A DNA stretch of 64,000 bases from Buxus sempervirens (taxonomy: Eukaryota > Streptophyta > Magnoliopsida > Buxales > Buxaceae), in the NCBI GenBank assembly GCA_947561395.2, contig OX387192.1:13118221-13182220 (forward strand). The letters run 5' to 3'. Below, one piece after another: positions 8,712 through 44,596 of the stretch (positions within the stretch are counted from its first letter, which is position 1; every line of letters starts with the position of its first letter). A program made the position numbers and the translations under genes. A model generated the notes under the pieces. It was not told the DNA's origin. It worked only from the letters and a program-made list of their open reading frames with translations, and made no database searches.

Positions 8712-8960
8712 TGTATCCGACCAAATATGTCGAATACACATACCTTTGTGTATATTCGACACTATTCATCGGATACAAGGAGATTAGTCAGCGAGATTTG
8801 CGCCGATTCACAGACAATTTCGCGGCGGCATCAAATTTTGCAAATTATGATGTTTTGTATCCGATATTTTATATCGGATACACATGGAGGTTAGTGTAGC
8901 CAACCTTGGAGGTCGGATACACATGGCCTCTAGTGTATCCGGCCTCCAAGGCCGGATACA
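8712..8960 (+). promoter_or_regulatory. Promoter-side palindrome array of A's LTR (2+3 units)
   Basis: Palindromic units start at 8712, 8749, 8856, 8895 and 8934. The last is nearly perfect (TGTATCCGGCC with GGCCGGATACA) and ends 11 bases before the TATA box. Read toward the TATA box, the 2-gap-3 grouping mirrors the arrays in the minus-strand LTRs. Confidence 0.8.
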
Positions 8961-8970
8961 TTAAGCTAGG

Positions 8971-8980
8971 CTATAAAAGC
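8971..8980 (+). promoter_or_regulatory. TATA box of A's LTR
   Basis: CTATAAAAGC follows the palindrome array directly. The same CTATAAAAGCCCAGC word occurs in reverse complement in solo LTR 2 (about 22192-22206), so it is conserved in the family. Transcription would start roughly 30 bases downstream. Confidence 0.75.
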
Positions 8981-9899
8981 CCAGCAACCACCCCTTGCTT
9001 GGGGTTGGCTCTTTTTGCTGGTTCGAGGCTTTCTTCCCCACTTGTGTTGGTGCGAACCTCCCTCATCTCAGCTCCCTTTACCTCCAATTGCCCTCCCACT
9101 CTCTTGAAAGACCATCCCATCCTTGTTTCTTTCTTCTTCACTTCTTTAACCAAGCTAAAGGAGCCTAGTTGCTGTTGGAGTGGAGCTTGGGCATCAGAGG
9201 ACTTTCCAGCAACATTTTGGCCTCAAGGAGGAGGCTCCACCTTGTACAAGAGTCTAAGAACCCCTAGGTAAGGTTCTTCATCCCATTATATTCAACATAT
9301 ATTAAAGCTGGATTTTTTTTCTACTGTTTTTTTTATTTTCTCGCTGGATATTTTTTCTATTCTTTTTTTTTATTTTCTCCTCTCTTGGCCTGAGCAGTTC
9401 CATGGTGGTTCAACCATGCCTTTACCATCTTTTTTTTTCATGGCATGAATGCCACCACCAGTAAGAAGTCCACGTAGGGTTCTTAGGGAAGCATGGGAGT
9501 CCATTTTTACACCTTTTCTGGTGCCCTTTGGCTGCTGTCCATGGGTTCATATTAAGTATTTTTCAGAAGGAGCATGTTCCTTCTTAGTTTACAATCTAAT
9601 GTACCCATATACTAGCCCTCATTCCTTTCCCATTTCTTCTCTCTTCTCATCTTTTTCTATGTTTTTTTGACATTGGGTTTCTGGTCGTAGCCTTGCTCTA
9701 GCTTTTTCTTCTCTTTTTTTAATGTCATGTGCTTGTTTGCTATTTGTCATTGAGAGGGAATGCATCTTCTTTTTTTCTCCTTGAATCTGCTGTTTTTTTT
9801 GTGTTTCTAAAACATGCCGGTTACTAATTACGTGCAATGACTTTGCATTGATTATTTGCTGTTTTTTGGGTGTATGTATGCAAGCATGTCCCCCTCACC

Positions 9900-11080
9900 C
9901 CCACAGCCCACTAGAGGTGCTTGCATGGGCTGCTGCTGGGAATAGCAGTAGCACCTCTCTACCCACTTCCCACTCCTCCACCCCATGCATAATTGCTCTT
10001 TTTTTAAACCATGTATGCTGCCGGTTCATGTGCACTAATGTTGCCTTGGTAACTTGCTAGTTTTTTTTTGTGACATATCTATATAAGCATGATCCCCTAC
10101 CCATGAATACCCGCTGTATTTTTGTACGCCAACACCTGTGCACCCCACCACCTAACCTAAGCATGCATGCTTCCCTCACCCCTTAACCCTTTGTTTTTTT
10201 GGGGCTGTACCCCTACTTACAGCCGGGTTTCACCCCCTGGTTAGTGTATGCATGAGGTGGCCTTGCCTTGTGGGATTATCAGAAGGTTGTGTACCCTTCC
10301 AACCTGCTGTTCCAGCAGGTCTATACATATTCCCTTCCCCCCCCCCCCCCCCCCCCCCCCCCCCAAGTTGGCTGTTATGCCCCTCCACATGTGGTTTGGT
10401 TGCTGCCCCACTAAGCTATGTAACAGTAATTTTCATGAGTTAGCATGCCTACTTCGCCCTTTTAGCTTTCTGTTTTAAGCCTTGCCAATGCCTCTCATGT
10501 CCTTATAAGTTGCTATTTTTTTGTATATATATGTAAGCATGCTCCCACCACTCCCCCTCAGCTTATAACCCCCCAAGGGTGCTTGCATGAGCTGCTGCTG
10601 GGAATAGCAGCAGCACTACCACCCACTCCCTACTCCCCCTTCCACCTACTGTTTTGGCATCTCCGAATGCACCGCAACCCACATCAATACCTGCCCCACC
10701 AGCATGTTTAAATACCACCCCACTTCCCTTTCTTTATGCTTTTAAGTTGAGATACATAGTGGAGATCAGTAGGGTATCGCTGTAGGTTACCAGGGATATG
10801 CTAGGATAAGTTGTCTTGTTTGTATGCATGTAGGAGCTTGCTGTTTTTTTTTTTGTGATCAGCCATGGTTGCTGCACCACGATGATGATTGTGTTCTATT
10901 TATTAACCAAGCTTTCCGTCGATTGTGTATGCTAACCCTCCCCTTGTTCTTTGTTCTTTTTGGATGGCCATAGCATGTGGAGAACCATTGCCATGTCCCC
11001 TTTACCATGACCAAAGTAAGTGCTGCTAGGGACAGCAGCAAACCTCCACTGTTTGCTGCTGTCCCAGCAGCCTTAAGCCC
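9900..11080. repeat. CTGCTG..CAGCAG palindromes in the transcribed part of A's LTR
   Basis: Interspersed palindromes of the type GCTGCTGGGAATAGCAGC occur at about 9928-9952, 10303-10319, 10591-10614 and 11022-11073; the last is a pair facing each other. Similar palindromes occur in solo LTR 1 (about 6598-6614), solo LTR 2 (20653-20703 and 20824-20873) and element B (about 46552-46572). They are a second, sequence-distinct palindrome class, downstream of the TATA box. Confidence 0.6.
10337..10364. repeat. C28 homopolymer
   Basis: An uninterrupted run of 28 C lies in the LTR of element A, just after a CTGCTG palindrome. Equivalent G or C runs occur in other LTR copies (46456-46480, 47821-47834, 47922-47939, 63545-63561). 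Confidence 0.9.
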
Positions 11081-12515
11081 AAGACCAGGCCCAGCCCTTC
11101 AACCCTTGTAGGCATGCTGCCTTATCCCTAATATCCATGCATTCCCAACCCCCACCCCATGCATAGCTTTTAATTGAACCATGCATGCTTGCGTTAGTGC
11201 AACATGGTACGATAGGTCTTGCTGTTGGGCTTTTAATTGTTCCTCATTTAGTGAAGTTAGGCCACCAAAGTAGGGGCACCAAGACCCTTACACCTTGCTG
11301 GAATTGCCGGAGAGAAATGAGAGGGGCAGCAGCCCCCATGCCCTCTTCTCATCTCTCATTTTGTGGAGAAACCCAAGGTAAACCACATGGGATGCCTCCC
11401 CCATGACCCGAACCAATGTGGACCCACCTAGGGGCCCACACAACTGGTATAAATCTCCTTGGAAATCTAGGAAACCACCTACATGGCTGAATCCTAAAAA
11501 TGCATTTTTGTGTGATCTTTGGTTTTCATTGATTCGGATAATCTCACAACAAAACCAAACGAACCAATAGACCCGGAAACCCAACATGGGACTTGGACCA
11601 CCGGTCCAATTTGGTACATTAGTGGGCCTTCCAACGGGGCCCACCAAGCTCGACGAACACTAAAGCATGCAAATAAGCAAGTTAAGTAAAATTAACCAAT
11701 CAAACTGGGGCGGGCCAAACCCAATGCGACCCACCCGAACCTTGTTTTATGGAATGATATTTGAATTGTATGGTTTGGCCGAGACCCAGGGTTAGGGCCT
11801 ATCGGGCCGGCTAATCCAACCAAGTGAGGGTTCAAAACCCTAAACTTCAAGAACATGGGCCTTCAAGCCTAAATTTGGACTACAGGCCCCAAACCCAATC
11901 TCCAACTCACCTTGGCAAATTTAAATAAGATAAATTCGAAGACACTTTGGTAACCATCATAGGGGCCCACCTAAGGGCCCACAAACCGAGGCCGACCCGC
12001 CTTCGCATGAAAGCCATTTAAAGTCTTGAATTAAACCTTAAAATAAAATTAATTCACTAAAATCTAAACCCAAAGAGCCTTTTAGGCTTAGACAGAGGCC
12101 CACATGGGATATGTGGGCTTACCCAAGTCCACCAAGGAAACCGCGGGCCTTCCAACGAGGCCCACCCTGCCAGACTCAGATCACCTAATTAAGAAAGATA
12201 AAAGCAATTTAAGGGACCCGCACCACTTAGTTGGTCCCGCCAGACTTAACCAAGTTGCATATCGAATTAGGAATCGGGTGAGAAACCACAGTAAGTTGAC
12301 TCAAACCAGGGAACCCACGAGACCCGTCATTCGACGGGGTGGTTTGGGGTGTCTACGGACTTCCCCAGACCGCAACCGAGACCCTACTTAGAATCTCAAG
12401 CCATAGACCAAAGCCCAAAATAGACAAGATTAGGCATCCAGGTCTCCGCCTGCATCCCATCAGGCGGTGGCGACTTCGAATTTTCCCCTGCCGTGTTCCC
12501 GACGCATGCACAGCC

Positions 12516-12533: not shown

Positions 12534-14189
12534 TTTCTCAGCCCAGTAGGACCTTGGTTAGATTGAGTTAGCGTAAGAGGGATTTAGTTGATATTTAGGA
12601 CTCTTGCTATCTTTTTTAGTAAGACGCAGAATAAAAGTAATTACGTGTTATGGGGAGTCCTGTCGAAAGGACGCGATAATTGCCCAAGGCAAGCGGAATT
12701 TAAGCGGTCCCTTGTGACCCTCCACTTACCTAGCGATTCTCCCGCAACATCGTAATGCGTGCCAATTCTACACCTTACTATACGAGACGGTAAAATTCCT
12801 TTGTCAACAAAATCCAGGCAAAACTCACCCGTGTAGACACAACACGCAGCCCAACTGCACACACGGGCACGCCACCACACCGTGGATGGATTTAATTTTC
12901 TGCTTTTGTGTGATAAACTGCGTGGGGTGACACGCACGAGGGAGGCTGCGTGGATGATCTAACCCCGAATGAATGAGTGAAAATACGGATATTGCAACTT
13001 CTTTACCAAGACTTAGACCTCTCTAGCAGCCTACCCTTCTGTTTCCTATAAACTGATCTTTGGGGTGGTATTAGCACCTACGCTCCCGTGGCTTGCCGGG
13101 GAAAGCAGGGTAAACCAATCCCCCCAGTTTTCTGGAGTCCATTAGCACCACTAGTTTCTTGCCGTGGCACGCGAGGATCCAGTACTGGTCCAAACCCTTG
13201 TAGGCTTATGTCTCGGGTTGGGTATCCTTCCCCACCTAACGTTTTTGTGTAAACCACACGTTGAGCATGCGAGGGTGAGTATGTTGTGAATGATGAATAC
13301 AAGAGGAGTAAAATTGGAATGAAACCTAAGAGTCCATTAGGGGCAGCAACCCCTGCCGTTTGCCTCAAATTGAGTAAACCCTAGATCATGGGCTACCTTA
13401 GCCCTAATTTAGGAAGCTCACCTAATTTTGATCAGGGGAATCACCCTAGATCCATGCATGGAGTCCTGTATGCTATGGGTCTCAACCCATTAGAGTCCGC
13501 TGGGAGCACTTTAAGTCCGGATCGGTCTCTTAGAGCAGATGCAAGCCGGCCAGATCAGACAAACAGATGAAAGCATGCCAAATCAGAACATGGGCACTAA
13601 ACCCTAGATCTAGGAACTTTTAGCCTACCCACTTTGAAAGCAATTTGTATCCTTCCTCTTGGCTCCCAACAGCCTTAAGGATGAATTCTTTATAGCTTTA
13701 TAAATATCTTGTACAAATTCCGCCCTCGATGGCAAGTTGTAATTTTTGCTATGGTCCGACACCGAAAGCAGATGAAAGAACAGATGAAAGACAGAAGACT
13801 GATCAGGACTTGAATGTGCTCCTCTTCACAAGTATGTCTAGGAGTCACGCCTCAACTGGCGCCAACCCTTAGGACCACACACCATGTGTGCCTGAATTTA
13901 AATTCTGCACTGTTTAATTTTTGCTTTATTTTGTGAAGCATGTTAAAACTGCTAGTGGTTAGTCCTTTTGCTTGAGGTTATGCATATTTTAGGATTGATT
14001 AGGAGTTTTGTGTGGAACCTTAAATTGATTTGGAATTTCGATCGGATAGTTGGCATGGCATCTTCATCCTCAATTGAAAGAACCCGTTTCCCTAGGATAG
14101 AGAAGTGCGCCTAGGATACCCCCTGGATCCATTCTTGGACAAGGTAGCTCCAAGGGAGTGAGCAGATTGAATGGGAGCACAAATACCGC
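12534..14189 (+). other. Untranslated leader of element A
   Basis: This stretch has no credible coding region. Its first 200 bases match the leader of element B (44397-44596 on the minus strand), including GGGGAGTCCTGTC and ATAATTGCC words, which confirms it belongs to the element. A long leader before the extra ORF is usual in Ogre-like elements. Confidence 0.7.
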
Positions 14190-15446
14190 ATGGGACAGAC
14201 CTTGTCCTTGTTAAACATGCCGATCAACTGGGATATGATCCAAGCAGCCTTGCTTTTCTGGGATCCCCAACTTTTAGTGTTTCAATTCGGGATCAATGAG
14301 TTGATCCCCACAATTGAGGAACTCGACCTGTTCCTCCGATTTCGCGACTTAGGAGAACCCGCTAGGCCAAGTCTCAAAGAAAGCTACAAGAATGAAGCTT
14401 GTGCTTTCTTTGGCCTCTCAAGGGGAGAATTCCAGACCTTAGGAAATGACAAAGCATTCACGAGGGTCTCCAAAACATTCCTAGCTGAAAAGATAAGAAA
14501 CAAAAAACAGGAAAGACCCCGGGCTTGGTTTGACACCTTCACCCTTGTGGTTCTGTCGCAAGTCTTCTTTCCAATTGAGGGAGACACCATTAATTTGGCC
14601 CTCATGGAAATTGTGGATCAACTCAGGGCAGCATACCGAATCATGCCACTGATCCTAGCTCAACTATTCCATTCCCTGACTTTGTCCAAAAATTGAACTC
14701 GGAGGTTTCAAGGGTGTGCAACACTTGTCAGTGCACATTATAAGGTAGCTAGTGATAACATCATATGGCTAGCCCGAAGAGAGATCAAACCAGACCTACT
14801 CGCTCGTGAGGATTGGTTTAACCACTTTCTTCATCTAAAGGGAGAAACAGACATTCGATGGTGGGGCACATACAACATCCCCTACACCCCCATTATAGCT
14901 TTCAAGAAAAGAGAGGGCCTTACCCTGATAGGTCTTATCCATGCTGTGCTATACTATCTGATTTGGGTTCTGAGATAGTTTGGGAAACTACAGGGAATCC
15001 CAGTCAAGGATGACATGGGCAATTTGATTGGTCCACTCACTAAGGGACTAACGGCGCAACTACAAATGGAGTGGAAGACGGTGTGCGTATATCGGGAGGA
15101 CGTCTTCATCGAATCACACTTTCAAGATTACGAGTAGTGGATAGCTCGGGAGTTCGGCCACAACGGCCCCCCAACTCTTCAGCCTGTCGCTTCAAGCGAC
15201 ATTCCAGTTCCGCCCCCTAACACATATAGGGACAGGGTGGCTGAACTGCAGGAGACCCACTCCCGTATCCATTCAGCTTATATGGATTCGGAACGGGAGA
15301 GTAAGCAAGCCAATATGGCCTTGCAACATGAAATGGAATTAGTACGCAAGTGCGCAGAGGAGGACCGGCGTCTGCGGAACAAGCTTCTACGAGCCTTGAG
15401 GAGGCAAGACGTGTCCTCCCACTATGATGATGACCAACCTAGCTAG
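14190..15446 (+). pseudogene. Extra ORF upstream of gag (Tat/Ogre ORF1), fossil
   Basis: Ogre-type elements carry an additional ORF between the leader and gag, of unknown function. The N-terminal part (14190-14696) contains NWDMIQAALLFWDP, FQFGINELIPTIEELDLFL and ACFFGL-like stretches. These resemble a plant domain found in such retroelement proteins (often labelled DUF7745), so this is a family-level resemblance only. The C-terminal part (15237-15446) is charged and probably coiled-coil (ELQETHSRIHSAYMDSER), ending at a stop at 15444-15446. The region is broken. Confidence 0.6.
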
Positions 15447-15751
15447 ACTTTGGCTTTGTTGTATTTTGTTCTGAATGATGATGTAATTTGTGCCATGGTG
15501 GCTCTTTTTTATTAAAGCATGAATCTATTTTTTTTTTGCAATGTTGTTCGGGCTTAACAAAACAAGAATTTGAAATAAAAGAATTAATCCCCTCCAATAG
15601 GGCAACTCGGTCTCCGACAGACCGCCTCTATTCAGATAATTGCATCTCTCCCATTGAGATCGCAAAACCCCGCAACTGTTAAAAACACCCAAGACTTTGA
15701 GCTTAGATCACATCCGTTTGTATCTTTCCAAGATCATTCGGTCAATCCTGT

Positions 15752-16225
15752 AGGGCACCGAAACTGCCGATGGATGAGTCGGATATTGGTGGAGGAGCGT
15801 CCTGGCATAGCCTACCCCTTTTAATGACACCAAAGCCGCTGGTGGTTGAATCAGATATTGGTTGCAGAGCATCCGGGTACTACTAGCCGAATTCTTAGGG
15901 CACCGAAGCCCCCGACGGATGAGTCGGATATTGGTGGAGGAGGGTCCTAGCATAGCCTATCCCTTTTAGTGACACAAAAGCCGCCGGTGGTTGAATCGGA
16001 TATTGGTTGCGGAGCGTTAGGCTACTACTAGCCAAATTCTTAGGGTACCGAAGCCGTCGACGGATGAGTCGGATATTGGTGGAGGAGCATATTGGCATAG
16101 CCTACCCGTTTTAGTGACACCAAAGCCGCCGGTGGTTGAATCGGATATTGGCTGCGGAGCGTCCAGGTACTACTAGCCGAATCTTTGTATCGCCGAAACC
16201 ACCGACGGATGAGTCGGGAATTGGT
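15752..16225 (+). repeat. Tandem repeat of about 145 bp, 3.2 copies
   Basis: Units start at about 15754, 15900, 16047 and 16190, each with an ACCGAAGCC..GACGGATGAGTCGG opening. Each unit consists of two related halves: GATGAGTCGGATATTGGTG.. and GGTTGAATCGGATATTGG.., so the 145-bp unit probably arose from a dimer of about 73 bp. Tandem arrays between ORF1 and gag are known in Tat/Ogre elements. Confidence 0.9.
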
Positions 16226-16323
16226 TAAGGCAACCCTGAGTGCTATTCTTCAACCCCCCTTTCTGAGACCATGCGTGGTCCAACCCTATGATTCCGAGCT
16301 CAGAAAAATCCCCCTGCATTGAA

Positions 16324-16872: not shown

Positions 16873-18460
16873 TGGATCAGCTAGGAGAGCAAGCACCGCC
16901 AGGGCAACATCCGGCAGAATCTAGCCAGGCACAAACGGTCAATGAGATGCAACAGAGAATTAACAGCATGGGTTCCGTCATCCAGGAATTAATGGCGTAA
17001 TTAAGGGAATTAAAGCAAGTCCCCCCAGTAGTGCCGGCCGCCCACCAGCCGCAGCCGCAGTTCACGCCACCAGCAGAGGTGGCACCACCACCACATCCAG
17101 TACATCCCCCTCCTGTGGCACCAGCACCGCCACCACCAGCAGCTCCGTTCCACATACCACAGCAGGATCAGTTTTTACCTGTCCATCTGGGGCAAGATGA
17201 CGAAGACTGGTACAGAGCGTAGGAAGCGCAGTTTGGGGGGAAATTGGCAGCAGTAAGAGAAGAGAACAAAGCAGAACTGGCTACCATGAGAGAGCTTCTC
17301 AAACAGCTCCAACCCAGTACAGTGCAGAGCGAGGCCATGCTTGAAAACCTCTGTTTCTTTTCTAACATCCAGCTCTCGGCTAAGTTCAAGTGCCCGGAGT
17401 TGCACCAGTTTGACGGCACGGGTTGCCCACTAAACCATCTGAGGTCTTATTCTGGCGACATGTGCCAGTATGCTAAGGAGGAACGAATCATGGTGTAGTT
17501 CTTCCAGAAGTCGCTAACCGGGGCGGCTTATTCTTGGTTCTTGAGTCTAGACAAGGCTAAGATAAAAACATGGAATGACCTGGCAGCAGTCTTTATCCAG
17601 CAGTACCGCCTGAACAGTCAGATAGTACAGACAAGGGCAGAGTTGCAAAGGCTGGCTAAGAAGAGCCAAGAGTCAGTAAGAGAATACGCCAAGCGCTGGA
17701 AGGAATTGGCAGCGTTGGTATAGCTGCCGTTGCTAGAACAGGAGATGACGTCCCTGTTTATTGTGTTATTGGGTCAACCCTTCTTCACTTTGCTGCTGGG
17801 GCAAAGTATGTCGAATTTCAATGACCTAATCCTGACGGTAGATTGGATTGAAGACGCAGTAAAAGCCGGGAAGATTGACGGCAGTAGGTAGAGTGCTGCA
17901 CCCAGAAGGCCAGTAATAGGGCAAGCCAGTAGAAGCCAGGGGCAAGAGCCTAGGAGACAGGAACAACAGGCGGTCAACTATGTATACCCTACACAACCTC
18001 ACCATTTCTCCCAAGGACCGGAGGCAGTTGCACCTCAGGGAACCAGGCAGGCAGCTTACCAAGGGGTAAGAAGGACGAGAGAAGAGATGGAGGCCAGGAT
18101 GAAACGGGTTTTCACTCCGCTCCCGTATGCACCAGCAGAGTTACTGCCAACTTTGTTGAAAAAGGGGTATGTGCAAGTCAAACCCCCTGAACCCTCGATT
18201 GGTCAACGCTAGAAGCTATAACGCAGCACAGCGGTGCGAGTACCACTCTGGTGCTCCAGGGCACCACACCAACCGGTGCTGGGATCTAAGGCACGACATC
18301 CAAGACCTGATTGACAGTAAACGCATCACGGTCGACCCTCCAGCACCACCCGCTCAGACTCCAACAGTCGGCGTGACTACTAACCCTCTCCCAGATCACT
18401 CAAAGGCCTCCGCTAGTAGGACGGCGAATCAAGTGAGCAGTGATCAGGGCACCATGTAGC
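16873..18460 (+). pseudogene. gag region of element A, fossil
   Basis: Gag forms the virus-like particle and binds element RNA. A Pro/Gln-rich N-terminal stretch (about 17031-17222) is followed by a retrotransposon gag core (about 17340-17760: FKCPELHQFDGTG, TWNDLAAVFIQQYRLN, VREYAKRWKELA). A nucleic-acid-binding knuckle lies near 18225-18275 (CEYHSGAPGHHTNRCWDLR). The order fits Ty3/gypsy Tat-type gag. The region is broken in several places. It continues across solo LTR 2 into the protease region. Confidence 0.8.
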
Positions 18461-19058: not shown

Positions 19059-19948
19059 TCCCCTGTGCGCGCGTCGAAAATGCCGTACGGGAAAATTCGG
19101 AGTCGCCACCGTCTGATGGGGTGCAGGCGGACACCTGGGTGCCTAATCTTGTCTATTAGTCTGGTCTGCGGCTTGAGATTCTAAGTCGGTTCTCGGTTGC
19201 GGTCTAGGGAAGTCCGTAGACACCCCAGTCTACGCCGTCGGATGACGGGTCCCGTGGGTTCCCTGGTTTGAGTCAGCTTACTTTGGTTTCTCACCCGATT
19301 CCTAATCCGATATGCAACTTGGTTAAGTCTGGTGGGACCGCCTGAATGTTGTGGGTCCCTTTAATTGATTTTATCTTATTTAGTTCAGGTGATCTGAGTC
19401 TGATTGGGTGGGCCCCGTTGGAAGGCCCACGATGCCCTTGGTGGGCTTGGTTAAGCCCATGTGCCTTTGGAGGGCCTTTGCCTAAGCCTAGGAGGCCTCT
19501 TGGCCAAGGTGAGTGGGATACTGGGCTTGGGGCCCGTAGTCCAAATTTAGGCTTGAAAGCCCGGTTCTTTGAAGTCTAGGGTTTTCACCCTTCCTTGGTT
19601 CAATTAGCGGGCTTTGGCGGGCCCGATAGGCCCTAACCCTGGGTCTCGGCCAAACCATACAATTCAAACATTATACCACAAAACAAGGTTCGGGTGGGCC
19701 ACATTGGGTTTGGCTCGCCCAGTTTGATTGGTTAATTTTACTTAACTTGCTTATTTGCATGCTTTAGTGTTTGTTGGGCTTGGTGGACCCCGTTGGAAGG
19801 CCCACTAGTGTACCAAATTGGACCGGTGGTCCAGGTCCCATGTTGGGTTTCCGGATGATCCGGAAACCCTGTTGGTTCACTTGGTTTTGTTGAAAATATC
19901 ATGAAAACTCGACAAGGAACAAAGAACACAAAAATGACATTTTTGTCA

Positions 19949-20014
19949 TGTATCCGGCCTTAGTTGCCGGATACGCACAAGCTGTAGGTGATCCGGCCTG
20001 AGTTGCCGGATCAC
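19949..20014. repeat. Downstream palindrome array of solo LTR 2 (2 units)
   Basis: Units start at 19949 (arms TGTATCCGGC / GCCGGATACG) and 19988 (arms GTGATCCGGC / GCCGGATCAC), 39 bp apart, at the same LTR position as the array at 6091-6195 in solo LTR 1. Confidence 0.85.
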
Positions 20015-22195
20015 CTCAAAACTGCTCTTTTCAGGGTTCAGGCAATTGGGGTGATTTCCAGGGGTTCCTAGGAGCTTTCTACATGTCATGTGGGCCCTTA
20101 GGTAGGGCCCACATTGGTTCAGGTTTGGGAAGAAATCCACTTTAATCCCTTTTGGGGGTTCTCACCAAAACAAGAGGTGGAGAGGAAGACATTGGGGCCG
20201 CTGCCCCTCTCATTTCTCTCCGGCAATTCCAGCAATGTGTAGGGGTCCTAGTACCCCTACTTTGGTGGTCACACTTCAGTATTCGATGGGCCATGAAAGC
20301 CCAACAACAAGGTCTTGCACTACGCATATTAAACACAAAATTGAACATGCTACAAATCATGGCATAGTAACAATAAACAAGAAGGGACAGCAGTGAAATG
20401 AGGGATCTTAGGTGGGCTTTAATCATGCTGATGGAAATGGTGAATGCCCAGAGATCAAGTGAAGGGGTGTATGCATGTCTAGTACTCAATGGGTTGGGTT
20501 GAGGGGTGATGGGCTCATGCATTCTTAGGTTTATGAGCAGCAAGTTACTTGAGAAGGGAAGGATGCATTCCTAACCAAAAAGACAATGGAAGTTGGCATA
20601 AATACGGGACTTGATTGTGGGTCAACACCGGGGTGATTCTAGGATTCCAAATTTGCTGGGACAGCAGCCAATGATGAGGGTTTGCTGCTGTCCCCAGCAG
20701 CCACTCATTTGGGTCATGGCAAAGGGAATGGAGGGGTGATGGGGGGCGTGCTTCCCTGAAGATGAGGGCTTGCCGATAGGTGCTATGGCAGCTAGTCTTG
20801 GGGATGATTTTAGGCCTTCCAACCTGCTGGGACAGCAGCAAACAGTGGGGATTTACTGTTGTCCCCAGCAGCAACTTACTTGGGTTAATGAAAAAGGGGT
20901 TAGGGTGCATGACAGTGGGTTAAGAGGCTAGGCTTGGGGGGATGCCTAGGCACCTAGGTGGGTCTGTTGGAGGTCCTGGAACAGCGGCAAGCAACAAAGG
21001 CTTGTTGCTGTCCATGACAGTAACTGGTGTAGGTCTTTGAAGCTTGCAGAGTAAACTTAAAAGGGGTAAAGGGGATCCATGGGCTTTCCAATAGCAACTA
21101 GCTGGAGAAAGGAAACATGTATCCCAATCTCCAAAAAAAATTCAGAAAGTTAATATGGCATGCAGGCATAAACAAACCAAAGTGAAACCATGCTGTAGGC
21201 ATTTATGCACATAAACACACACTAAACAGCAAGCCTAAAAGGAGGGGGACTTGCTGGAATGGCTGCCCGAAAACAATAACATCTGAGCGGGAAATAACCG
21301 GCACATGACAAGGAGACACCCCACCATACATAGAGAATATAAGTTAACATTGGCATGGGCATGCATCCTCATGTGATGGCCTTTTCCAGCAAAGGAAAAT
21401 AGCAAGGAGATGGTTGCCGAAAACCATCAGATCCATATGCATGCAAGAAACACAAAGTGGCAACAAAACACACATGCAAGAAGAACAATGAGAAGAGCAA
21501 TGATCTAATATGCATTTCCTACGATTCTTAGCGATATATGAACCCAAGACTCATGCTTAAACCTAGCGAAAATTCAGAGAAGGGGAGGAGAAGGGGGTAT
21601 ATATGGGGATACACTGGATGAAATTACGGGGGAACAAGCTCCCCCCTACTGAATCTCCAAGGATCCCAAAACAGCAACCTTGTTGGCCTCAAATGGTGTG
21701 GCCAAGTTCCCCATCTTTTCATGGGTCGTGCATGGGGTCTCTCTCACCTTTAGAGACCTCCATGTTACCAAAGGAACGAAAGAAAACATATGTAAGGGAA
21801 GTCCTCAAACAGGTCCATGCTAGGGGAGAAGACCAACTTTGGCAAACACCTTAGAAAATTCCTATTTTAATGTATGGGTAATACAAAGTAGTAGAGATGC
21901 TCACCTGGGTGTTCTTGCACTCCAAAGCAAGGTGGGAACCCTTCTTTGATGATGGACAGCAGCTAGAAGCCCTTGGGTACACAGCCTTGCTCCACCAGCA
22001 ACTAGTCTCCTTTAACTTGCTTAAGAAAGTGAGGGAGGAGAAGAAGGAAACAAGGGTGGATGCACTTGAGGTGGTATGGTGAGGTGGTGGAGAGCAAAGG
22101 GAGTTGAAGAGGGAAGGTTTCGGATGAGAAAAGGTGGGGGAGGAAGCTAAAAACTAGCAAAAGAAGCCAACCCCCGGCCAGAGGTGGTTGCTGGG

Positions 22196-22206
22196 CTTTT
22201 ATAGAC
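22196..22206 (-). promoter_or_regulatory. TATA box of solo LTR 2
   Basis: On the minus strand this reads TCTATAAAAGC, eight bases downstream of the first palindrome of the array starting at 22215. It is shared with the TATA region of A's LTR. Confidence 0.75.
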
Positions 22207-22214
22207 AAACTTAA

Positions 22215-22461
22215 TGTATCCGGCATTAAATGTCGGATACACTACATGTCCTTTGTATCCGGCATTTAATGTCGGATACACTGAACCTCCTTTGTATCCG
22301 GCATAAAATGTCGGATACAAACAAAATTATTTCAAAAATTTAATGCCGCCGCGAATTTGTCGGGGAATCGGCACGAATTTCGCCGAGCAAATCTTTGTAT
22401 CCGACATTTGAGTCTGGATATGAAGAGGAGCAAGTGTATCCGGCATATTTGGTCGGATACA
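22215..22461 (-). promoter_or_regulatory. Promoter-side palindrome array of solo LTR 2 (3+2 units, 39-bp period)
   Basis: Units start at 22215, 22254 and 22293, then 22396 and 22435. Spacing within each group is exactly 39 bp and the gap between groups is 103 bp. Each unit has 9-10-base arms (TGTATCCGGC / GTCGGATACA) around an AT-rich centre. Confidence 0.88.
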
Positions 22462-23040
22462 AATCGAAAAATTATGGATTTGCCCCTCGACTTGACCGAT
22501 TCGACCGACTCGACCGATTTGACACTTTTGGATATCTACGGATTGCTCCCTGCGAATTTTTGCTTTAAACCCTGGGATATTTTGCATGTTTGGATATTTA
22601 CGGATTGCCCCTCGAGATATTTTCTTGCGCCACTCGCCACGTGTGCAGCTTTCTGGGTTTTGCTGCTCGGAAACTTTGACAACTCATATCTCCTTCATTC
22701 GGACTCCGATTTGAGCAAACTCAGTTGCGTTGGACTCGTATCGGAGCCCTCCATCCAATAATATAGATCTAAGCACCTGGCTCGGGGTTCAAAAAAAGTC
22801 AACTTTCGGCTCCTCCTTTAAGTTTGACCGGTCCACAGAACCTTCATCCGGACTCCGATTCCAGCAAACTCAGTTGCGTTGAACTCATGTCGGGATTCTC
22901 TATCCATTGAGATAAAGCAAGGTGGCCAAATATCACTTGATCAAATGGTCAAATTTCGACCCCTCAGGGTTTTGACTTTTTAGCCGGGTTTTGCATTTCC
23001 GGCTCTTCTGGGAGCGCAAAAATGAGGTGCTTACATCCCC

Positions 23041-25466
23041 TACAGGCCTCCCTCTGGTGCACTTCCACCCAACTAGGGATCAAGAGTTTTTCTACTTGAC
23101 CCCCCTCGCCAACCCTGCAACCCTTGACATCCATGACATCATGGACTCGCCTCCACAAGACCCCTTCTCCCTTTCATTCAAACCACCTACCCTGAACCTT
23201 TCCAAACTTAACCTGGAACCACCTTCGTACAATGTCATACCACCACCCTACCCCACTCAATCCCCCTACCATTCATCCACCACCACCACCATTAAAGTAG
23301 AAATCGATTGAATCACCCGATTAGGTTGATATGTAAACACCGATCCCCCACCCGCACTAGAGGAAGGAGCGGAGGTAGAAGCAAAGAGGAAAGAAAAAGG
23401 GAAGGATGTGGTTACTGAATTGCCACAGACCCTCAAGAGAAAAGGAAGGGCCACCGAAGAGGAAATCATAGATTTTCTCCACAGTGTTTTCACTCCAGAA
23501 TACGACCTCCTCTAGCAGTTGAACAAGGTGCCTGCCCAAATCTCTATAATGCGACTTCTGATTGATTCGGAAAAGCACAGGGCAGTGCTAATGAAGGTCC
23601 TGGGTGATGCACACGTACCAGCAAGCATTTATCTTGAGCAACTAGGGGCAGTGGTGTCAGTGGTCACGGCACCCCAGGCTATTTCCTTCTCTGCAGCAGA
23701 TCTGCCGCCTGAGGGTTGTGACCACACAAAGCCACTCTACATAACCATGAAATGTGTAGATCTCATTGTAAAGCGGGCCATGATCGACAATGGATCGACA
23801 CTGAATATATGTCCGATGAGGACATTCCATAGCCTGCAATTGAATCCTTCGATGATCAAGCCAAGCGCTCACAATGTCAGGGGCTTCGACAACGCCAGAA
23901 GAGATTCACTGGGAGAGGTCACTTTGGTGATCATAATTGCAGATAGGCCATTCACCATGGATTTTGAGCTCATGGATATCAACGCCTCATTTAACTTGCT
24001 GATTGAGAGGTCGTGGCTGCATCAGGCAGGAGCAGTATCTTCCACACTGCACAGAATGGTCCGATTTATATCGGGTAATAAGCTGATCACGGTACATGCG
24101 AAGGACCATCGGAAGTTTGAAAGGGTTGGAGTACCCTATGTGGATTATGAGTTGCCCACCACACTCAATTTCCTGGCAGTGGAGATGGTGCAGGTGAATC
24201 ATATCCCTGAATCTGAAAGGGGGCAACGACTCTCGAAGAGAAGAAGAAAGTACATGTTTAGCGCTGCTGACTATGCAGACTGGGGTCTCAGAGCCGTTGA
24301 TGGACTGGGCAAGTATAAGCAGGGAATTAAAGCAGCCGTTCAACCTTATGAGCAAACCACTGGGTTTGGCCTAGGGTTCAAGCCGCAACCGGAAGACTAC
24401 TCCCGATTCTCTGGGAATCGTGCCGAAAGGAAAAGAGCCAGAACTGAAGGAAGAGACCCCCACTTGCCCATATGCGTGCATGAGAACTTGTACCACCGCT
24501 TCACCAACATGGAGCGTAGAGCAGCTCAAGCCATCAAGAACATAGTCCCCCAAGGGTGGGGAGATGAGTTTCTGGACACCTCTGCCATGGAAGAGGACTA
24601 CCTGCTAGGCCTGGCTTAGATGCTCTGGGAGGAGCCACCATCTATGAAAATAATCGGGAATGCGGTCGAGATAGACCCACTGGCTCCGAAAGGGTCACCA
24701 GATAATCTACCGACGCTAGTCGCCTTGGAATCCGTCGATGACGTCACCATGGCTTTCGCTCCACCAGAGGAGCCATTCATCCTTGAAAGGATACCAGTCC
24801 TCCCCATAGCGGCCATAGAAGCACCGCCACCTGCTCACGTTGAGGAATCCAAAGAAGAAGGTCCAATCATGTATGTCTGCATGATGGAAGGGCGAGACAG
24901 CTCAGGGACGCCAACCCACAGGCTAGGATCGCCTCCTCCACCTCCCTATATCCCGCACCCGGGGACTCGTGACGGTCTGAACCGGATGTTCCGCAACATG
25001 CCTCAGGTGCTAGGGCCAGTGCCCGAAGAAGTGTACCATGCAGCTTATGGCAAATGGGCACCACCAGCTTACTCTTCTATTGTGCCTGGGATACCAACCG
25101 GAATACCCATAGCCTTTGCACCACCCAGAGTTGACCCGGCCAACGAGGTCACCATCACATACATGCCGCCTGAGGACGAGATACAGATGGCAATTCCCCT
25201 CAGTGGATCATGGGAAAGGGTATCATCAGACAGCGCGCCCCGATCAGAGAGAAGCCAGAACAAGCCGGTAGGCGCGGCAAATGATCCCATCTACATCTCG
25301 TCTGACGACAGCACCAACATGGTGCTGGCTGGAGAACCAAAGAAGACGATTTCTATCAACAACGAAGACGGGGCACCACTGAAGAACTGGAGCGCCACGC
25401 CGTTTGCTATCAACAAAGCTACTATCCCAAAGGGGGTTTCTGTCACCTCTGAAATTTCTGTTGTAG
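23041..25466 (+). pseudogene. Protease region of element A, fossil
   Basis: Retropepsin-type protease cuts the gag-pol precursor. The core lies in 23519-24619, with an active-site-like MIDNGSTLNICP stretch near 23780, followed by DRPFTMDFELMDI and NLLIERSWLH, typical of Tat-type proteases. A Pro-rich spacer with LPEDYLLG-like and PPPPYIPHPG stretches follows (24620-25466) and leads to the RT. In Ogre elements protease and RT are separated by a spliced segment; I cannot show a splice here. Solo LTR 3 interrupts the spacer at 25471/27895. Confidence 0.75.
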
Positions 25467-26190
25467 CTACTTGTGCGCACCTAAAAATCTAGATCGCACA
25501 CGGGGCGCACGTGGGTTTGTGTGTGCCTCAGGACATTCGGAGTCGCCACTGCCTGAGAGGTGCAGGCAGACACGGTGTTTGCCCTATACGGGTCTAAGTC
25601 TGGTCTGCGGCTTTTCAGAGTTCTAGCTAAGTCCTCGTTTACGTCCGGGGAAGCCCTAAGACACCCCGGCCCGCCCCGTCGGTTTGATGGGTCCCTCGGG
25701 TTTCCCTGGTTTTTTGAGTCAGTCTCACCCTTCCTAGACCAGCATGCTGTCTATTGGGTCTGGCAGGACCCTCTGAAGGTGTGGGTCCCTTTTACTTTGA
25801 TTTTATCTTTTTATTTAGTGGAGTGGGTCGGACCCGGGTCCCGTTGGAAGACCCGTGGGTTGCCATGATTGGGCCTGGGGCCCAGTTGGGTTATTGGGTA
25901 ACCCATTTGGTTATTTTATTAAGTTTCATTTATTTACAATTTTAGTTTTGGCTTAGTGGGCTTGGAATGGGCCCATTAGCCTAAGTCAATTGGCCTTGGG
26001 CCCGTTTTTGTTGAAAACGGCCGGTCTAAGGTGGGCCCCACAAGTGGGCCCAGGGTGGTCTTGGTGGGCCCATTGTCCAAAATGGACTTAGAAAAGTCCA
26101 ATTTATTAAAAATGATCGGGTTAATTCATTCCGGGTCGGATTTGGGTCCAACCGGGTCAACAAATTGATTTTTTATTGATTTTCCTGAAA

Positions 26191-26297
26191 TGACCGCATT
26201 TGCTCTGCGGTCTGGTCTTGACCGTAGAGGAACTACGGTTTAGTCATGACCGCAGAGAGAATACGGTCATAACTAAACCGCTCTGTGTCTGCGGTTT
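26191..26297. repeat. Downstream palindrome array of solo LTR 3 (4 units, 28-bp period)
   Basis: Units start at 26191, 26219, 26247 and 26275, with arms such as GACCGCA / TGCGGTC. The period is exactly 28 bp. The base sequence is unrelated to the GTATCCGG palindromes of the other LTR type, yet the array sits at the corresponding LTR position. Confidence 0.85.
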
Positions 26298-27073
26298 TCA
26301 CCACTTTTCGACTTTGAACTCCAATTCCGATTGGGACTCCTCCGGTGGTCTTCTCAGGTGTTTCGGCAGCTCCGGTTGGGATTCTAGATTCTTCAAAGTC
26401 CTTCCCTTTCTTCTTTTGGCCTAAAAGGCCTGCTTCTTCTTTCTTTCTCTTTTAACATGAAAACCAGCATCTTTTTTGATGATTCATGATCATCTTTTGG
26501 AGGGGGAAGTGGGAAATTACAAGGAACTCATTTAATCTCAAGAAGGGTTCAATCCTTCCATGTCAAAGAATTAAAAAGGGTTATTTGATTAGTTAATCAA
26601 AGTTTTCTTTAGACACTTTCTTTTTCTCCTTTCTTGTAATGATCAACCCTTTAATACTATCTTCTCATGGCACTCAAAACAGCAACTGAGTTAGTAACAT
26701 TAAAAGTATTTAAAAGAGACTAGAAAAGAAATTTAAAGTGAAAACATTAGTGATAATATCATATTATAAAATCTAACATACTTACAATATGGTTTTTGCT
26801 AGTGATGATTTCCCCAACGAATTCGGCAGCTCTTCCGCGTCCTCCAAAAACTCTTAAGTTGGGTTTGAAAGGGGTTGAGTAGGTGGTTATGTTCAAAGGA
26901 AGATTAGAGAAGGTTTGGACATGGTTTTGGTGAGGCAAGGGTATTTTGGGAACAAAAAAGGTTTGGGTTTAGGGGTGGCGGCAATTGGGCAGAGGTTTGT
27001 CATGAGAACATCAGGGGAGGAAGGGGGGATCGGCCAAGGGACCAGGCTTGTTCAAATGAGGGGGGTGGCCTCT

Positions 27074-27084
27074 CTATTTATAGG
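27074..27084 (-). promoter_or_regulatory. TATA box of solo LTR 3
   Basis: On the minus strand this reads CCTATAAATAG, just downstream of the palindrome array that starts at 27096. Confidence 0.7.
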
Positions 27085-27095
27085 CAAAATTTTCG

Positions 27096-27312
27096 TGCCC
27101 GTATTTGAAGTACAGGCATGCCTTGCCCGTACTTCAAGTATGGGCGTGCCTTGCCCGTAATTTAAATACAGGCGAAAAACGCACATTTCCAAATCTTGCA
27201 AAATCGGCCGTACGGGACGCGTGTCTCGCCGTACAGCGACACGCGTCCCCTTCTAGAAGCTCGCCCGTATTTGAAATACGGGCATGCCCCGCCCGTACTT
27301 CAAATACGGGCG
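27096..27312 (-). promoter_or_regulatory. Promoter-side palindrome array of solo LTR 3 (3+2 units, 28-bp period)
   Basis: Units start at 27096, 27124 and 27152, then 27262 and 27290, with arms GCCCGTA / TACGGGC. Spacing within groups is exactly 28 bp and the gap between groups is 110 bp. A further 12-base palindrome (GGGACGCGTGTC at 27214 with GACACGCGTCCC at 27238) fills the gap. Confidence 0.88.
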
Positions 27313-27899
27313 CGCACGTTTTTTAAATGCTGGATTTGAAACACTTTATTAAATTTGATTTTTAAACGGATTTTATTCGATTTTAATGATTATTATATTA
27401 AAATATCTTCAGATATTTATTAAAATATTATTAAAAGTTAAGATATTTTTTATAAACAATTATTTTATTTATTTTACTCATTTGTTCTGCCTTTTTGCTG
27501 CTGTTTTGCCACATGGACAGTTTTCTCGAAACTTCAACTGCCCATAACTTCTTCATTCGGTGTCCGATTTCAGCAAACTTAGTGTCGTTGGAACCGGCTC
27601 GGAATCACCTATCCACTGGGATCAATTCGGGTAGCTGAATCGGGGTCAAGCAAAAAGTCAACTTTACGCTCCCCAAAAGTTTGACCAGCTCATAACTTTC
27701 TCATCCGGACTCCGATTCCAGCAAACTTAGTTGAGTTGGAACCGTGTTGAAATGCTCTTTTTAATGAGATGAAATTTGACGGTCAAATTCACTTGAATCA
27801 AAAAAGTCAATTTTTTGGCCCCCTCAAGGTTTGACTTTTTAATTGAAATTTTCATTTTCTTCATTTTTTGGGGTGCAAAAATCAGGTGCTAACACTACT

Positions 27900-29940
27900 G
27901 CTGAAATTTTCAATAAATATCTGAATGCTTCCTGCTACTTGCATCTGTTTGAAAATGAAAATAACAAAAATAAGCAACTTGAAAATTGCAATCTTATTAT
28001 CAATCCCAACGCACACCTGGGAGATCTGGGGCATGGATAGGTAATAAGATTGCCATAATTGAACAAAAAGAAATTGAAAAGCTAGTGCAGATAGCAATAA
28101 TAAATGAAATGCATGAGCCAGTGTCCAATCCTGAAAACGAGCAAGAACTCGACAAGTCAGATTGGGGCACTTGCCCATCGTAGCGAGTAGATTCAGACAT
28201 CGTCCCCTGTGAGCCTTTCAAGCATAAGGACGACGATGAATCATGGGAGACCCCGCTTGAATTCCAACTTGCATTGGAAAGGCACGAAAAGATTCCCCAA
28301 GCCAACATTGAGGAAACAGAGCCAATTGACATAGGTGAAATGACACAACCAAGTATCCTCCAAATTGGTAAAAAGCTGTCACCATTATTGAGAAAACAGA
28401 TGTTTGATTTTCTTAAGTCTTATTCTGACGTATTTGCATGGTCATACGAGGATATGCTTGGGTTAGACATGGACTTGGTTGTGCATAAGTTACCAACAAA
28501 GTCTGAGGCCGTACCTCTAAAACAGAAGCTCAGGCGCACGAAGTCGGAATGGGCCCTGAAGATCAAGGAAGAGGTCACCAAGCAGTTGGATGCCGGATTC
28601 CTGCAAGTAACTCATTACCCGAAGTGGTTAGCCAACATTGTGCTGGTTCCCAAGAAAGAGGGGGAAGTCAGGATGTGTGTTGACTACAGAGATCTGAATA
28701 GAGCAAGTCCGAAGGACGACTTCCCATTGCCGCACATCGATGTACTGGTTGACAATACTGCTACACATTCGATGTTCTCCTTCATGGACAGCTTCTTTGG
28801 TTACAACCAGATAAGGATGGCACCTGAGGATATGGAGAAAACATCCTTTATCACGCACTGGGGCACTTACTATTACTGCGTGATGCCGTTTGGATTGAAA
28901 AATGCGGGCGCTACGTATCAGCATGCAATGACCTCAATATTCCACAACATGATGCATAAGGAAATGGAAGTATATGTGGATGACATGATAGCAAAGTCTA
29001 AGGAAGAAGAAGATCACTTGGTGAACCTTAGGAAGATGATCAACAGACTCAGAGAGCACAAGCTCCGGCTCAACCCAAACAAGTGCGTATTTGGAGTTAC
29101 TTCAGGAAAGCTGCTCAGCTTCATAGTGGGCAAGCGAGGCATTGAGGTTGACCCCGTCAAAGCAAAGGCAATTCTGGAGATGCCTCCTCCATCGACTGAA
29201 AGGGAAGTAAGAGGGTTCCTAGGTAGGCTACAGTACATTAGCCGGTTCATTGCACAAATGACTCCAGTGTGTGAGCCCATATTCAAGCTACTGAAGAAGG
29301 ACAATCCCGTGGATTGGAATGAAGACTGCCAAGTAGCGTTTGATAAGATCAAGGCTTATCTGATGAGTCCGCCGACATTGGTCCCGCCAGTCCCAGGACG
29401 ACCCTTGATTATGTATCTGACAGTCTCTGAGACGGCTGTAGGATGTGTCTTGGGGCAACACGATGAGGAAGGAAGGAAAGAACAAGCAATCTACTACCTG
29501 AGCAAGAAATTTACCAACTTTGAAGTCAGATACACCGTGCTTGAAAAGACGTGTTGTGCCCTGGTCTGGGCAGCTCAGAAGCTTCGGCATTATCTGCTTA
29601 GTCACACAGTCTTACTGATCTCGAACCTGGACCCATTGAAGTATATCTTTGACAAGCCAATCTCCACTGGTAGGGTTGCCAGGTGGCAAGTCCTTTTGTC
29701 CAAGTACGACATTGTCTACACGACTAGAAAGGGGATAAAAGGACAAGCTGTTGCAGATCACCTGGCAGAGCATCCCCTGCCAGACTACCAACCGCTCCTG
29801 ACTCACTTCCCGGACGAAGATGTGATGTATACCGAGTCCACAGAAGAGGTAGAAGAAACCCAATGGCAGATGTTCTTTGACAGGGCAGTCAATGTAAATG
29901 GAAAGGGGATCGGAGCAGTGCTAATCTCCCCGATGGTGTT
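27900..29940 (+). pseudogene. RT-RNase H-second RNase H region of element A, fossil
   Basis: Reverse transcriptase and RNase H copy element RNA into DNA. Ty3/gypsy RT motifs are clear: VRMCVDYRDLNRASPKDDFPLP near 28675, MPFGLKNAGATYQ near 28885 and the catalytic YVDDM near 28974. RNase H follows (about 29390-29800: YYLSKKFTNFEVRYTVLEK, TRKGIKGQAVADHLAEHPLP). The beginning of a second RNase H comes next (WQMFFD..VNGKGIGAVLISP, about 29850-29935); this double RNase H marks the Tat/Ogre branch. The element breaks off here at the junction with minus-strand sequence. Confidence 0.88.
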
Positions 29941-31149
29941 CATCCCCGTCATCCTTTTTGTGAGACCTTTTCCTTTGGCTTGAATGCGAACTTGCCACGC
30001 TTGTTCGAGATCCTGCTGAGTACGTGGAGATTCCGCCAAGGACTGGTGTGACCCAATCTCGTCTTTGTGTCGCTTTCCCTTGCAAAGCCAACCTCTTCAG
30101 ACTGGGTGAGGCTTGGGAAAAATTACACTACCAGGTATCATTCCCTTATTGTGGAAGGATTCCATGGGGAATTAGGGGATCTCGCCCTTCGCTTGTTGAC
30201 CAAGACTTCACTGGGGATTAGAGGATATTACTCTCCGGTTGCTGAAGGAATTCCACTAGGGATTTGGGAGAGGATGCTCGCTATCTCACCCTTGCTATAC
30301 CTATGAAAAGGCGACATCGTGTTAGTGGTGGACTAACTGGGGAAAGCAGGTGTGTCAGTGTGTGCCTGTGTCTGCAAAATCAAAGGTTTCCAAGGTCAGA
30401 CGAGACTTGGAGTGCTTGGTATTTTTAGTAGTATTGTCATCACAGGCCACTGCAAAGTTTTTAGCTTGGGCACAACCTACCGGTCTGGACTCCTCAGATC
30501 TATTCATCTCTCTCGGTTCACTGCTTGTCACTGTTACTGCTCTTTCCGTACCTTGTTCTGCCCAGTCCAGATGTGACTAGTTTTTTTTTCCACTGACCAC
30601 ACAACGCCCTTTTTTCGGGTTTTCGTTGTGTGAAGCTTTTTCTGGGAAATTCCGAATTCTGTCGTCGCCGATGAACATAGACTTAACCGTTTGCCCTGAT
30701 CATTCCTTTTGGGATCCGAGAGATCTTGGAGATAGGACGAAATGTAGGCTTGGTCTTGGTTACGAAAGAAAGGATAGATGGCTCAAAAAAAGCTTAGTTA
30801 TCTAGGTTTGCAAAGTGTGCTACTTTTATTGTTGGTGGGACTTACATCCTAGCTTATTTGTATCTCTACTTTTTTTGTTGGGTAAACATTTCCTAATTTT
30901 CTTTGTTTCTTTCTTTTATTTCTTTTCTTTTTTTGAGATTTTTCTGGGCAAGAATGCCCTGTTTCTTTTTTGCTTTGCCAAGAATGCCCTATTTGATGTG
31001 TAGAACACTTGTACTGGGTTGAAAGAATTTTAAGGCTCAAAATTGTCTAACTAGAGGAGAATTCAAGGTGCTTAGAAGGATTTATAGTCTAAAGGAGAGT
31101 CAAAGATGGCCTCTTTTCATTTCCTAATCAGCATGATCCTAGGCATAGT
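29941..31149 (-). mobile_element. Tat/Ogre 3' UTR, opposite orientation
   Basis: No coding region is convincing. On the minus strand this follows the Tat/Ogre integrase end directly (after removal of the LINE L2 target site), so it is the element's 3' untranslated part. It contains the 18-base motif AGCCTACATTTCGTCCTA (30733-30750, inverted) shared with 4516-4533 and 4707-4724, and AT-rich low-complexity stretches at about 30860-30960. No LTR follows it; it runs into the + strand second RNase H of element A. Confidence 0.6.
30145..30290. repeat. Short tandem repeat, about 3 units of roughly 48 bp
   Basis: Related units carry GGATTCCATGGGGAATTAGG, then ACTTCACTGGGGATTAGAGG, then GGAATTCCACTAGGGATTTG, each followed by a CTCGC/CTCTCCGG-like end. 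Divergence is high. Confidence 0.5.
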
Positions 31150-43566: not shown

Positions 43567-44596
43567 TCACATGTTGCTGAATTGTTCTTTAGAGAGATTG
43601 TGAAATTACATGGTATGCCTAGAACAATTGTTTCAGGTCGAGATGCTAAGTTCTTGAGTTACTTTTGGAAGACTTTATGGGCTAAGTTAGGAAATAAATT
43701 GTTGTTTTCTACTACTTGTCACCCACAAATTGATGGTCAAACCGAGGTAGTGAATAGGACTTTGTCTACCTTATTGAGGGCCATAATCAAAAGGAACATC
43801 AAAACTTGGGAAGAGTGCTTACCACATGTTGAGTTTTCACCGTTTGAAATTGTCTATGGTTTTAATCCCTTAACTCCATTGGATTTAACTCCATTGCCTT
43901 TATCAGAACGTACTAACTTGGAGGGACAGAAAAAGGCTGAATTTGTTAAGCAGATACATGAGAAGGCAAGGTTGAACATTGAAAGGAAGATAGAGCAATA
44001 TGCTAGACAAGCAAACAAAGGGCGCCAAAAGCTGATTTTTTAACCTGGAGATTGGGTTTGGTTACACATGAGAAAAGAAAGATTTCCAGCCCAAAGGCGT
44101 TCCAAGTTGTAGCCGAGAGGAGACGAACCATTTCAAGTTCTTGAGCGTATAAATGACAACGCCTACAAATTAGATTTACCATGTGAGTATAATGTTAGTG
44201 CCACTTTTAATGTTGCTGACTTATCTCCTTTTGATGTAGGTGAAGATTTGAGGGCAAATCCATTTCTAGAGAAGGGGAATGATGATGGCAAGGTTACTAA
44301 AGAATTACAAGAACCCATCAAAGTCCCAATTGGACCCGTCACAAGAGCCCGAGTTAAATGTTTCAAGGAAGAGCTTAATAATTTAATCAAAAAGGTCCCT
44401 AGGTAATTGGAGGGGCACAATGGTCCTACTTAAATTCCAATTGCCTTAGGCAATTATCTCGTCCGTTTGACAGGACTCCCCGGAAGATGTATTTGCGCGT
44501 ATTCTACGCTTTACTAAACTAGATAGTAAGAACCCTAAGCCAACTAATCCCTCTTGTGTTGACTCATTCTAACCAGGGTCCTACTGGGTTGAGCAA

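Follow-up and report, generated by a model that had tools for sequence, protein, structure and literature searches.

LTRs and element pieces of the window

The window, that is the whole 64-kb stretch of DNA analysed here, is plant-like DNA with numerous LINE pieces, in which LTR retrotransposons are nested; matches to reverse transcriptase, zf-RVT and DUF4283 were found. Six related LTRs of about 2.4-4.4 kb, with the 5-bp TSDs CTACT, GCCAC and TCCCC, were recognised in it (Table 1). LTR1, LTR2, the solo LTR at 19064-23035 and LTR4 form type 1; S3 and the LTR5 fragment form type 2, of which the window shows no recognisable internal region. An earlier note on this DNA had read S3 as a solo LTR, and the TSD found on its two sides agrees with that. 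S3, a putative Ogre-lineage LTR, has no internal region and is 68-73% identical to the other window LTRs over its end regions. LTR1 lies in the opposite orientation to its host LTR2, so that 7772-8128 and 8237-8593 form the arms of a large inverted repeat within 4943-12513. A module of at least 112 bp is duplicated near the U3 end of four minus-strand LTRs, the copies being 148-149 bp apart; this is a second spacing that is conserved across both LTR types.

Table 1. Positions in the window of the LTRs, their arrays and other features
Feature	Position	Strand	Remarks
LTR1	5056-8236	minus	TSD GCCAC; inside LTR2
LTR2	4943-5055 + 8237 to ~12513	plus	5' LTR of plus-strand element
Solo LTR 19064-23035	19064-23035	minus	TSD TCCCC
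S3, solo LTR, type 2, 2423 bp	25472-27894	minus	TG...CA ends; TSD CTACT on both flanks
LTR4	about 44618-48733	minus	type 1
LTR5, fragment, type-2-like	from about 51090	minus	
TATAAA of S3 promoter, TATAAATAGAG	27077-27082 (read 27082 to 27077)	minus	aligns with four type-1 TATA boxes
S3 proximal promoter group, three CCG-N11-CGG dyads	27099-27171	minus	centres 27107, 27135, 27163
S3 distal promoter group, two CCG-N11-CGG dyads, both intact	27265-27309	minus	centres 27273, 27301
S3 downstream group, four intact CCG-N11-CGG dyads	26194-26294	minus	centres 26202, 26230, 26258, 26286
36-bp palindrome in S3 promoter gap, different sequence	27214-27249	.	arms GGGACGCGTGTC/GACACGCGTCCC, 12-nt loop
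LTR1 promoter array, 39-bp type	7465-7680	minus	3+2 dyads
LTR1 downstream array	6096-6190	minus	three dyads, 39-bp period
LTR2 promoter array, 39-bp type	8717-8955	plus	3+2 dyads; second distal dyad with TCG core
19064-23035 promoter array, 39-bp type	22220-22456	minus	3+2 dyads
19064-23035 downstream array	19954-20009	minus	two dyads, 39-bp period
LTR4 promoter array	47971-48169	minus	2+2 dyads, one with 10-bp loop
LTR4 downstream array	45716-45810	minus	three dyads, 39-bp period
LTR5 type-2-like downstream array	51840-51884	minus	intact dyad (centre 51876) and damaged palindrome (centre 51848)
Duplicated U3-end module	7873-8133, 22671-22931, 27529-27788, 48374-48633		LTRs of both types
TGGGCCC...GGGCCCA palindromes	26032-26052, 6269-6294, 20088-20114, 45890-45913, 51667-51691		downstream part of LTRs
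ORF1 piece	14148-14696	plus	DUF7745 PF24924, E 1.7e-12; element with LTR2 as 5' LTR
gag piece, LTR2 element	17499-17723	plus	PF03732, E 7.9e-14

In the LTR2 element, and in this element only, an ORF1 piece with DUF7745/PMD similarity was found upstream of gag; its match to PMD (PF10536, E 5.4e-07) reaches 29.5 bits, under the curated 34.9. The single-sequence structure model of ORF1 is poor (mean pLDDT 57.4), and a PDB sequence search gave no match at E up to 1. A 145-bp tandem repeat (3.3 copies, 15751-16226) separates the ORF1 and gag pieces. A PBS-like sequence, TGGCGACTCCGCTGGGG, begins three bases past LTR4, and the LTR2 version differs from it by one change; it seems to resemble the Ogre PBS. 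The Ogre PBS is complementary to tRNA-Arg, according to the available part of PMC9289625. The 18-base PBS pattern gave no locus in viral contigs and 11 in genome contigs, all prokaryotic, about 7 matches being expected by chance (our own estimate); compared with the window by blastn, none of these 11 contigs shows similarity at E 1e-3. One reverse transcriptase piece had no relatives in the viral or prokaryotic collections either.

A pol end with a SH3_Tf2-1 match meets the LTR4 PBS region at 44113-44618, a rearranged junction. At 23516-24619 an interrupted element has a weak G-patch similarity (E 0.1, under the cut-off), a domain known from plant Gypsy elements (PMC9289625, partial text). In a search for the second, archaeal-type RNase H that Ogre elements have between RH and INT, no Pfam match was found in 29714-29980, where the reading frame stops.

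Palindrome arrays and their common skeleton

All nine palindromes described in S3 by the earlier note are present, at most one base from where it had placed them, and the 28-bp period is exact: dyad centres are 28 bp apart in every group, promoter and downstream. The promoter groups are separated by 110 bp start-to-start, which matches the gap first estimated, and the downstream group lies about 0.8 kb downstream of the TATA box. As S3 reads on the minus strand, its 3+2 dyads stand upstream of the TATA box; the three-then-two layout announced by the earlier note is found in S3 and in type 1 (with 2+2 in LTR4), but this orientation had escaped it. The downstream and proximal 28-bp arrays were detected by TRF, and all nine dyads by the skeleton search described below. 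At a strict threshold the window contains 54 palindromes vs 9-12 in four dinucleotide shuffles, and two regular chains of at least three, both of them 39-bp arrays, vs none in the four shuffles. The 36-bp palindrome of the S3 promoter gap is strong; a palindrome scan displayed its inner 10 pairs. A large palindrome also covers 26236-26280, in the region of the S3 downstream array, and further palindromes are present in the window LTRs.

A second array, of 2-4 dyads, was found downstream of the TATA box in four of the five promoter-bearing LTRs, at about 0.8 kb in S3, 1.3 kb in LTR1 and 2.1-2.2 kb in LTR4 and 19064-23035. The two-array layout proposed earlier holds for these four but not for every copy: LTR2 has no recognisable downstream array, including at the equivalent place near 11470-11510. 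Within each LTR type, promoter and downstream arrays have the same period and similar half-sites.

The motifs of the two LTR types had been called unrelated. They are not: the skeleton CCG-N11-CGG is common to both. It occurs 27 times in the window, whereas 200 dinucleotide shuffles contain 2.7 occurrences on average and never more than 9; 23 of the 27 matches are array dyads and four lie elsewhere, about the chance level, among them the match at 48083, which falls within the LTR4 array interval and is no dyad. Among 1984 gapped palindromic trinucleotides CCG-N11-CGG ranks first in type-1 LTRs and second in S3, where it is first in the downstream half and 30th in the promoter half, three of whose five dyads carry a core transition; in the LTR5 fragment alone, with one match, it ranks 109. 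S3 has seven matches, one outside the arrays, vs a mean of 0.30 and a maximum of 4 in 5000 shuffles. LTR1, LTR2, 19064-23035 and LTR4 have 6, 3, 6 and 3 (LTR2 counting the non-array match 8493, LTR4 that at 48083) vs 0.15-0.32 (2000 shuffles each, P ≤0.0015). All six LTRs come from a single window and four are closely related, which means that the counts are not independent.

Around this skeleton the outer half-site bases differ by type, TGTAT in type 1 and TGC or TGA in S3. Type-1 dyads are mostly TGTAT-CCG-N11-CGG-ATACA. In the plus-strand text the S3 promoter dyads have the form GC-CCG-TA...TA-CGG-GC and the LTR5 dyad AA-CCG-TA...TG-CGG-TT; the S3 downstream dyads are RA-CCG-YA...(TA or TG)-CGG-TY, with one loop-edge variant. 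Within S3 the promoter motif TGCCCG-TA resembles the downstream motif TGACCG-YA. The idea of a structure kept while the sequence turned over is supported for the promoter layout, the exact regularity and much of the turnover, but not for the independence of the motifs, given the shared skeleton.

The skeleton search, allowing at most one core mismatch and requiring at least 7 of 12 arm pairs, returned 38 rows, four of them outside the arrays. The other 34, with the second distal dyad of 19064-23035 added by hand from the alignment, make a list of 35 dyads; it omits the second distal dyads of LTR4 (10-bp loop) and LTR2 (TCG core, weak arms), the fourth downstream palindrome of LTR4 and the damaged palindrome of LTR5. 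Cores are intact in 23 dyads and carry one change in 12, a transition each time, counts that are biased by the entry rule of at most one mismatch. The three S3 proximal dyads have one transition each, always in the left (sense) core (CTG, CCA, CTG), their right cores being intact. Such transitions fit a decay of methylated cytosines in silenced copies.

Start-to-start spacing within groups is 39 bp in type 1 vs 28 bp in S3, and this applies to the promoter arrays as well as to the downstream ones; it results from a 17-bp dyad followed by a spacer of 22 vs 11 bp; the difference of 11 bp pointed out earlier is thus exact and comes from the inter-dyad spacer. The intact dyad of LTR5 and its damaged palindrome are also 28 bp apart. 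The distance from the nearest CGG to TATAAA is 16 bp in LTR1, LTR2, 19064-23035 and S3, and 15 bp in LTR4. Between promoter groups the start-to-start gap is 103 bp in 19064-23035, 104 in LTR4, 105 in LTR2 and 82 in LTR1, where a deletion is visible in the alignment.

From these 11 bp the earlier note had concluded that the sites would stay on the same face of DNA. This helical phasing was rejected at 10.5 bp per turn, since the phase resultants of the dyad centres are 0.10-0.25 in the seven arrays tested; a period of 28 bp makes 2.67 turns and one of 39 bp makes 3.71. If 10.0 bp per turn are taken instead, clustering appears in the type-1 arrays (0.62-0.89), 39 being close to 40, and is absent from the S3 arrays (0.38 and 0.25). 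The relative phase of adjacent dyads is alike in both types, and nothing more of the phase is kept.

Conservation of the half-sites and pairing of their arms

Like the arrays, their skeleton and their spacing, the conservation of the half-sites is directly observed. Alignment of the four type-1 promoters gives a pairwise identity of 0.883 for the cores (162 comparisons) and 0.896 for the outer half-site bases (270), vs 0.602 for the loops (294) and 0.669 between dyads (592); it is 0.785 further up in U3 (2951) and 0.557 downstream (1178). Between S3 and type 1 the values are 0.447 for cores, 0.484 for outer bases, 0.358 for loops, 0.357 between dyads, 0.612 further up in U3 and 0.455 downstream. 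S3 dyads are not superposed on type-1 dyads in a plain alignment, so that the arrays are akin in skeleton and position rather than column by column. In the aligned type-1 promoters CpGs are retained in 32 of 38 core cells vs 122 of the 227 remaining cells (Fisher P 0.0003).

The loops show another behavior. In the S3 promoter the loop of dyad 1 is exactly the reverse complement of that of dyad 5 (11/11), the LTR1 proximal loop is the reverse complement of two of the three downstream loops (11/11; 10/11 for the third), and one S3 downstream spacer is almost the reverse complement of another. This inverted recurrence suggests that arrays swap sequence, via their palindromes, inside one LTR; both arrays could then change their code together, and gene conversion between dyads could inflate the apparent conservation. 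It is also what a neutral origin would predict, in which template switching or slippage at inverted repeats produces palindromes and arrays and multiplies them, with no function attached; the large palindrome at 26236-26280 and the additional palindromes of the LTRs go in the same direction. We nevertheless regard such a by-product as improbable, since half-sites are conserved well beyond loops and spacers, core CpGs are preferentially retained, and two divergent types have the skeleton and the TATA distance in common.

The arrays might also be stem-loops in the retrotransposon RNA, serving packaging, stability or small-RNA processing, with the downstream array placed towards the 5' end of the RNA and the U3 array towards its 3' end. 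Of the eight array segments tested, seven indeed fold far better than their shuffles (z -4.1 to -9.2), the LTR5 segment barely so (z -0.97), but good folding is not decisive as any palindrome folds. We compared arms with their own partner and with swapped ones, in 32 hand-picked palindromes (15+8+5+4, indel-bearing ones and LTR5 left out) and by a permutation that ignores relatedness. In S3 own arms pair no better than swapped ones, with 44 pairs vs 44.0 in the promoter and 26 vs 27.8 downstream. Type-1 promoter arms show a weak excess (156 vs 149.3, P 0.058), mostly from the loop. At the opposite, type-1 downstream arms covary (78 vs 61.3, P 0.0006), and compensatory stem changes are clear in this group only, being weak or absent in the three others: its dyads have three self-complementary flank variants (TGTAT, TGTAG and TGAT) in which both arms are changed. 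In the promoters of S3 and, nearly so, of type 1, the half-sites thus behave independently, which favors their being read by a protein. The LTR2 promoter dyads centred at 8869 and 8947 do have a nearly full loop self-complementarity; by contrast loop position 5 is G/T in the plus-strand text of 5 of the 15 type-1 promoter dyads, which makes A.C, and no wobble, in the sense RNA of minus-strand LTRs. Cores are moreover kept in sequence beyond mere pairing, and promoter arrays precede the TATA box by a set distance. Structure as the sole explanation was thus put aside for the promoter arrays; a structural role is kept as possible for the type-1 downstream arrays, and hairpins as an account of the arrays at large seem to us improbable.

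A regulatory reading, its possible factors and known systems

We consider it probable, judging from the sequence, that the palindromes are cis-regulatory dyads, i.e. CCG-N11-CGG half-site pairs, most likely bound by a sequence-specific dimeric protein. Two or three dyads would act close to the TATA box, with another pair some 80-110 bp higher up, and promoter and downstream arrays would flank the presumed position at which transcription of Ogre-type LTRs starts. LTR transcription might then be set by a cooperative filling of the two arrays, which perhaps loop together. From one type to the other the core, the half-site spacing of 11 bp and the TATA distance are constant, whereas the outer specificity bases and the inter-dyad spacer (22 vs 11 bp) change in both arrays; fixed geometry with changed outer bases and spacer is expected from a co-divergence of the sites with one binding protein. 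Binding itself, dimerisation, the effect on transcription and looping are the parts of this reading that we infer. The default candidate for the binding factor is a host transcription factor, and a protein encoded by the element is a possible one. No plant factor is known to us whose site is CCG-N11-CGG.

The latter case would recall VANC: the element's own protein, for example the ORF1 product, would bind the dyads of its own family in order to activate, autoregulate or prevent silencing, and motif and protein would co-diverge. The position of the DUF7745/PMD-like ORF1 upstream of gag in a type-1 element suits this idea, as does the presence of PMD in 57% of Ogre elements (PMC6317226, in the part of the text available). 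In Arabidopsis the PMD proteins MAIN and MAIL1 act on TE silencing and on genes that have one promoter motif in common (PMC7156037, partial text), and VANC proteins bind family-specific motifs that vary among related elements, according to the excerpt consulted of PMC5735166. The likeness of both arrays within each LTR type, in period and half-sites, would also be expected. On the other hand, the window has no recognised type-2 internal region to pair with the type-2 motif, and the structure model of ORF1 is poor. DNA binding by PMD was not found in the literature consulted, partial texts included, and we know of none. Finally VANC21 motifs are arrayed in one orientation and are not dyads, as far as the available text of PMC5735166 goes. 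Altogether, we hold a VANC-like binder to be unlikely.

Quite unlikely in our opinion is its most explicit form, a self-directed operator of the Ogre lineage, in which a dimer of the element's own ORF1-type protein would sit on the CCG-N11-CGG dyads flanking the LTR start and serve autoregulation or anti-silencing. Each family would have its outer-base code and a spacer set in steps of 11 bp; such a family-specific code and spacer would insulate new families from each other's regulator.

How the promoters of the giant Ogre elements diversify while remaining functional is poorly known. Sites that keep their geometry while their specificity bases change offer a concrete signature to look for genome-wide, and pairing LTR motifs with ORF1 sequences would tell whether the element brings its own regulator.

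The lineage itself has its likeness in Ogre/Tat elements: long LTRs, a 5-bp TSD and an extra ORF with PMD similarity before gag. No account of dyad arrays in Ogre LTRs came out of a literature search that covered partial texts and few subscription papers. As to the sites, those of fungal Gal4-type zinc-cluster proteins are CGG-N11-CCG. They likewise have trinucleotide half-sites 11 bp apart and several dyads near a promoter; compared with type 1, which is CCG-N11-CGG, their half-site orientation is reversed. S3 displays both orientations, as its half-sites alternate every 14 bp. This is an analogy only; to our knowledge plants have no Gal4-type zinc-cluster proteins.

The BII boxes of Tnt1 are repeated in tandem ahead of the TATA box, in a U3 that turns over among Tnt1 subfamilies. 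We know of no CCG-N11-CGG dyads and of no second, downstream array in this Ty1/copia element. The BII boxes of the tobacco Tnt1 U3 are, like the arrays described here, boxes of a plant LTR promoter, and they bind defence-induced factors (PMC3316501, in the part available). The Arabidopsis VANC/VANDAL system is a DNA transposon with motifs in the same orientation and a proven element-encoded binder, unlike the window LTRs, whose half-sites form inverted pairs; yet it likewise carries short, family-specific tandem motifs in the non-coding DNA of a TE (PMC5735166, from the portion of the text consulted).
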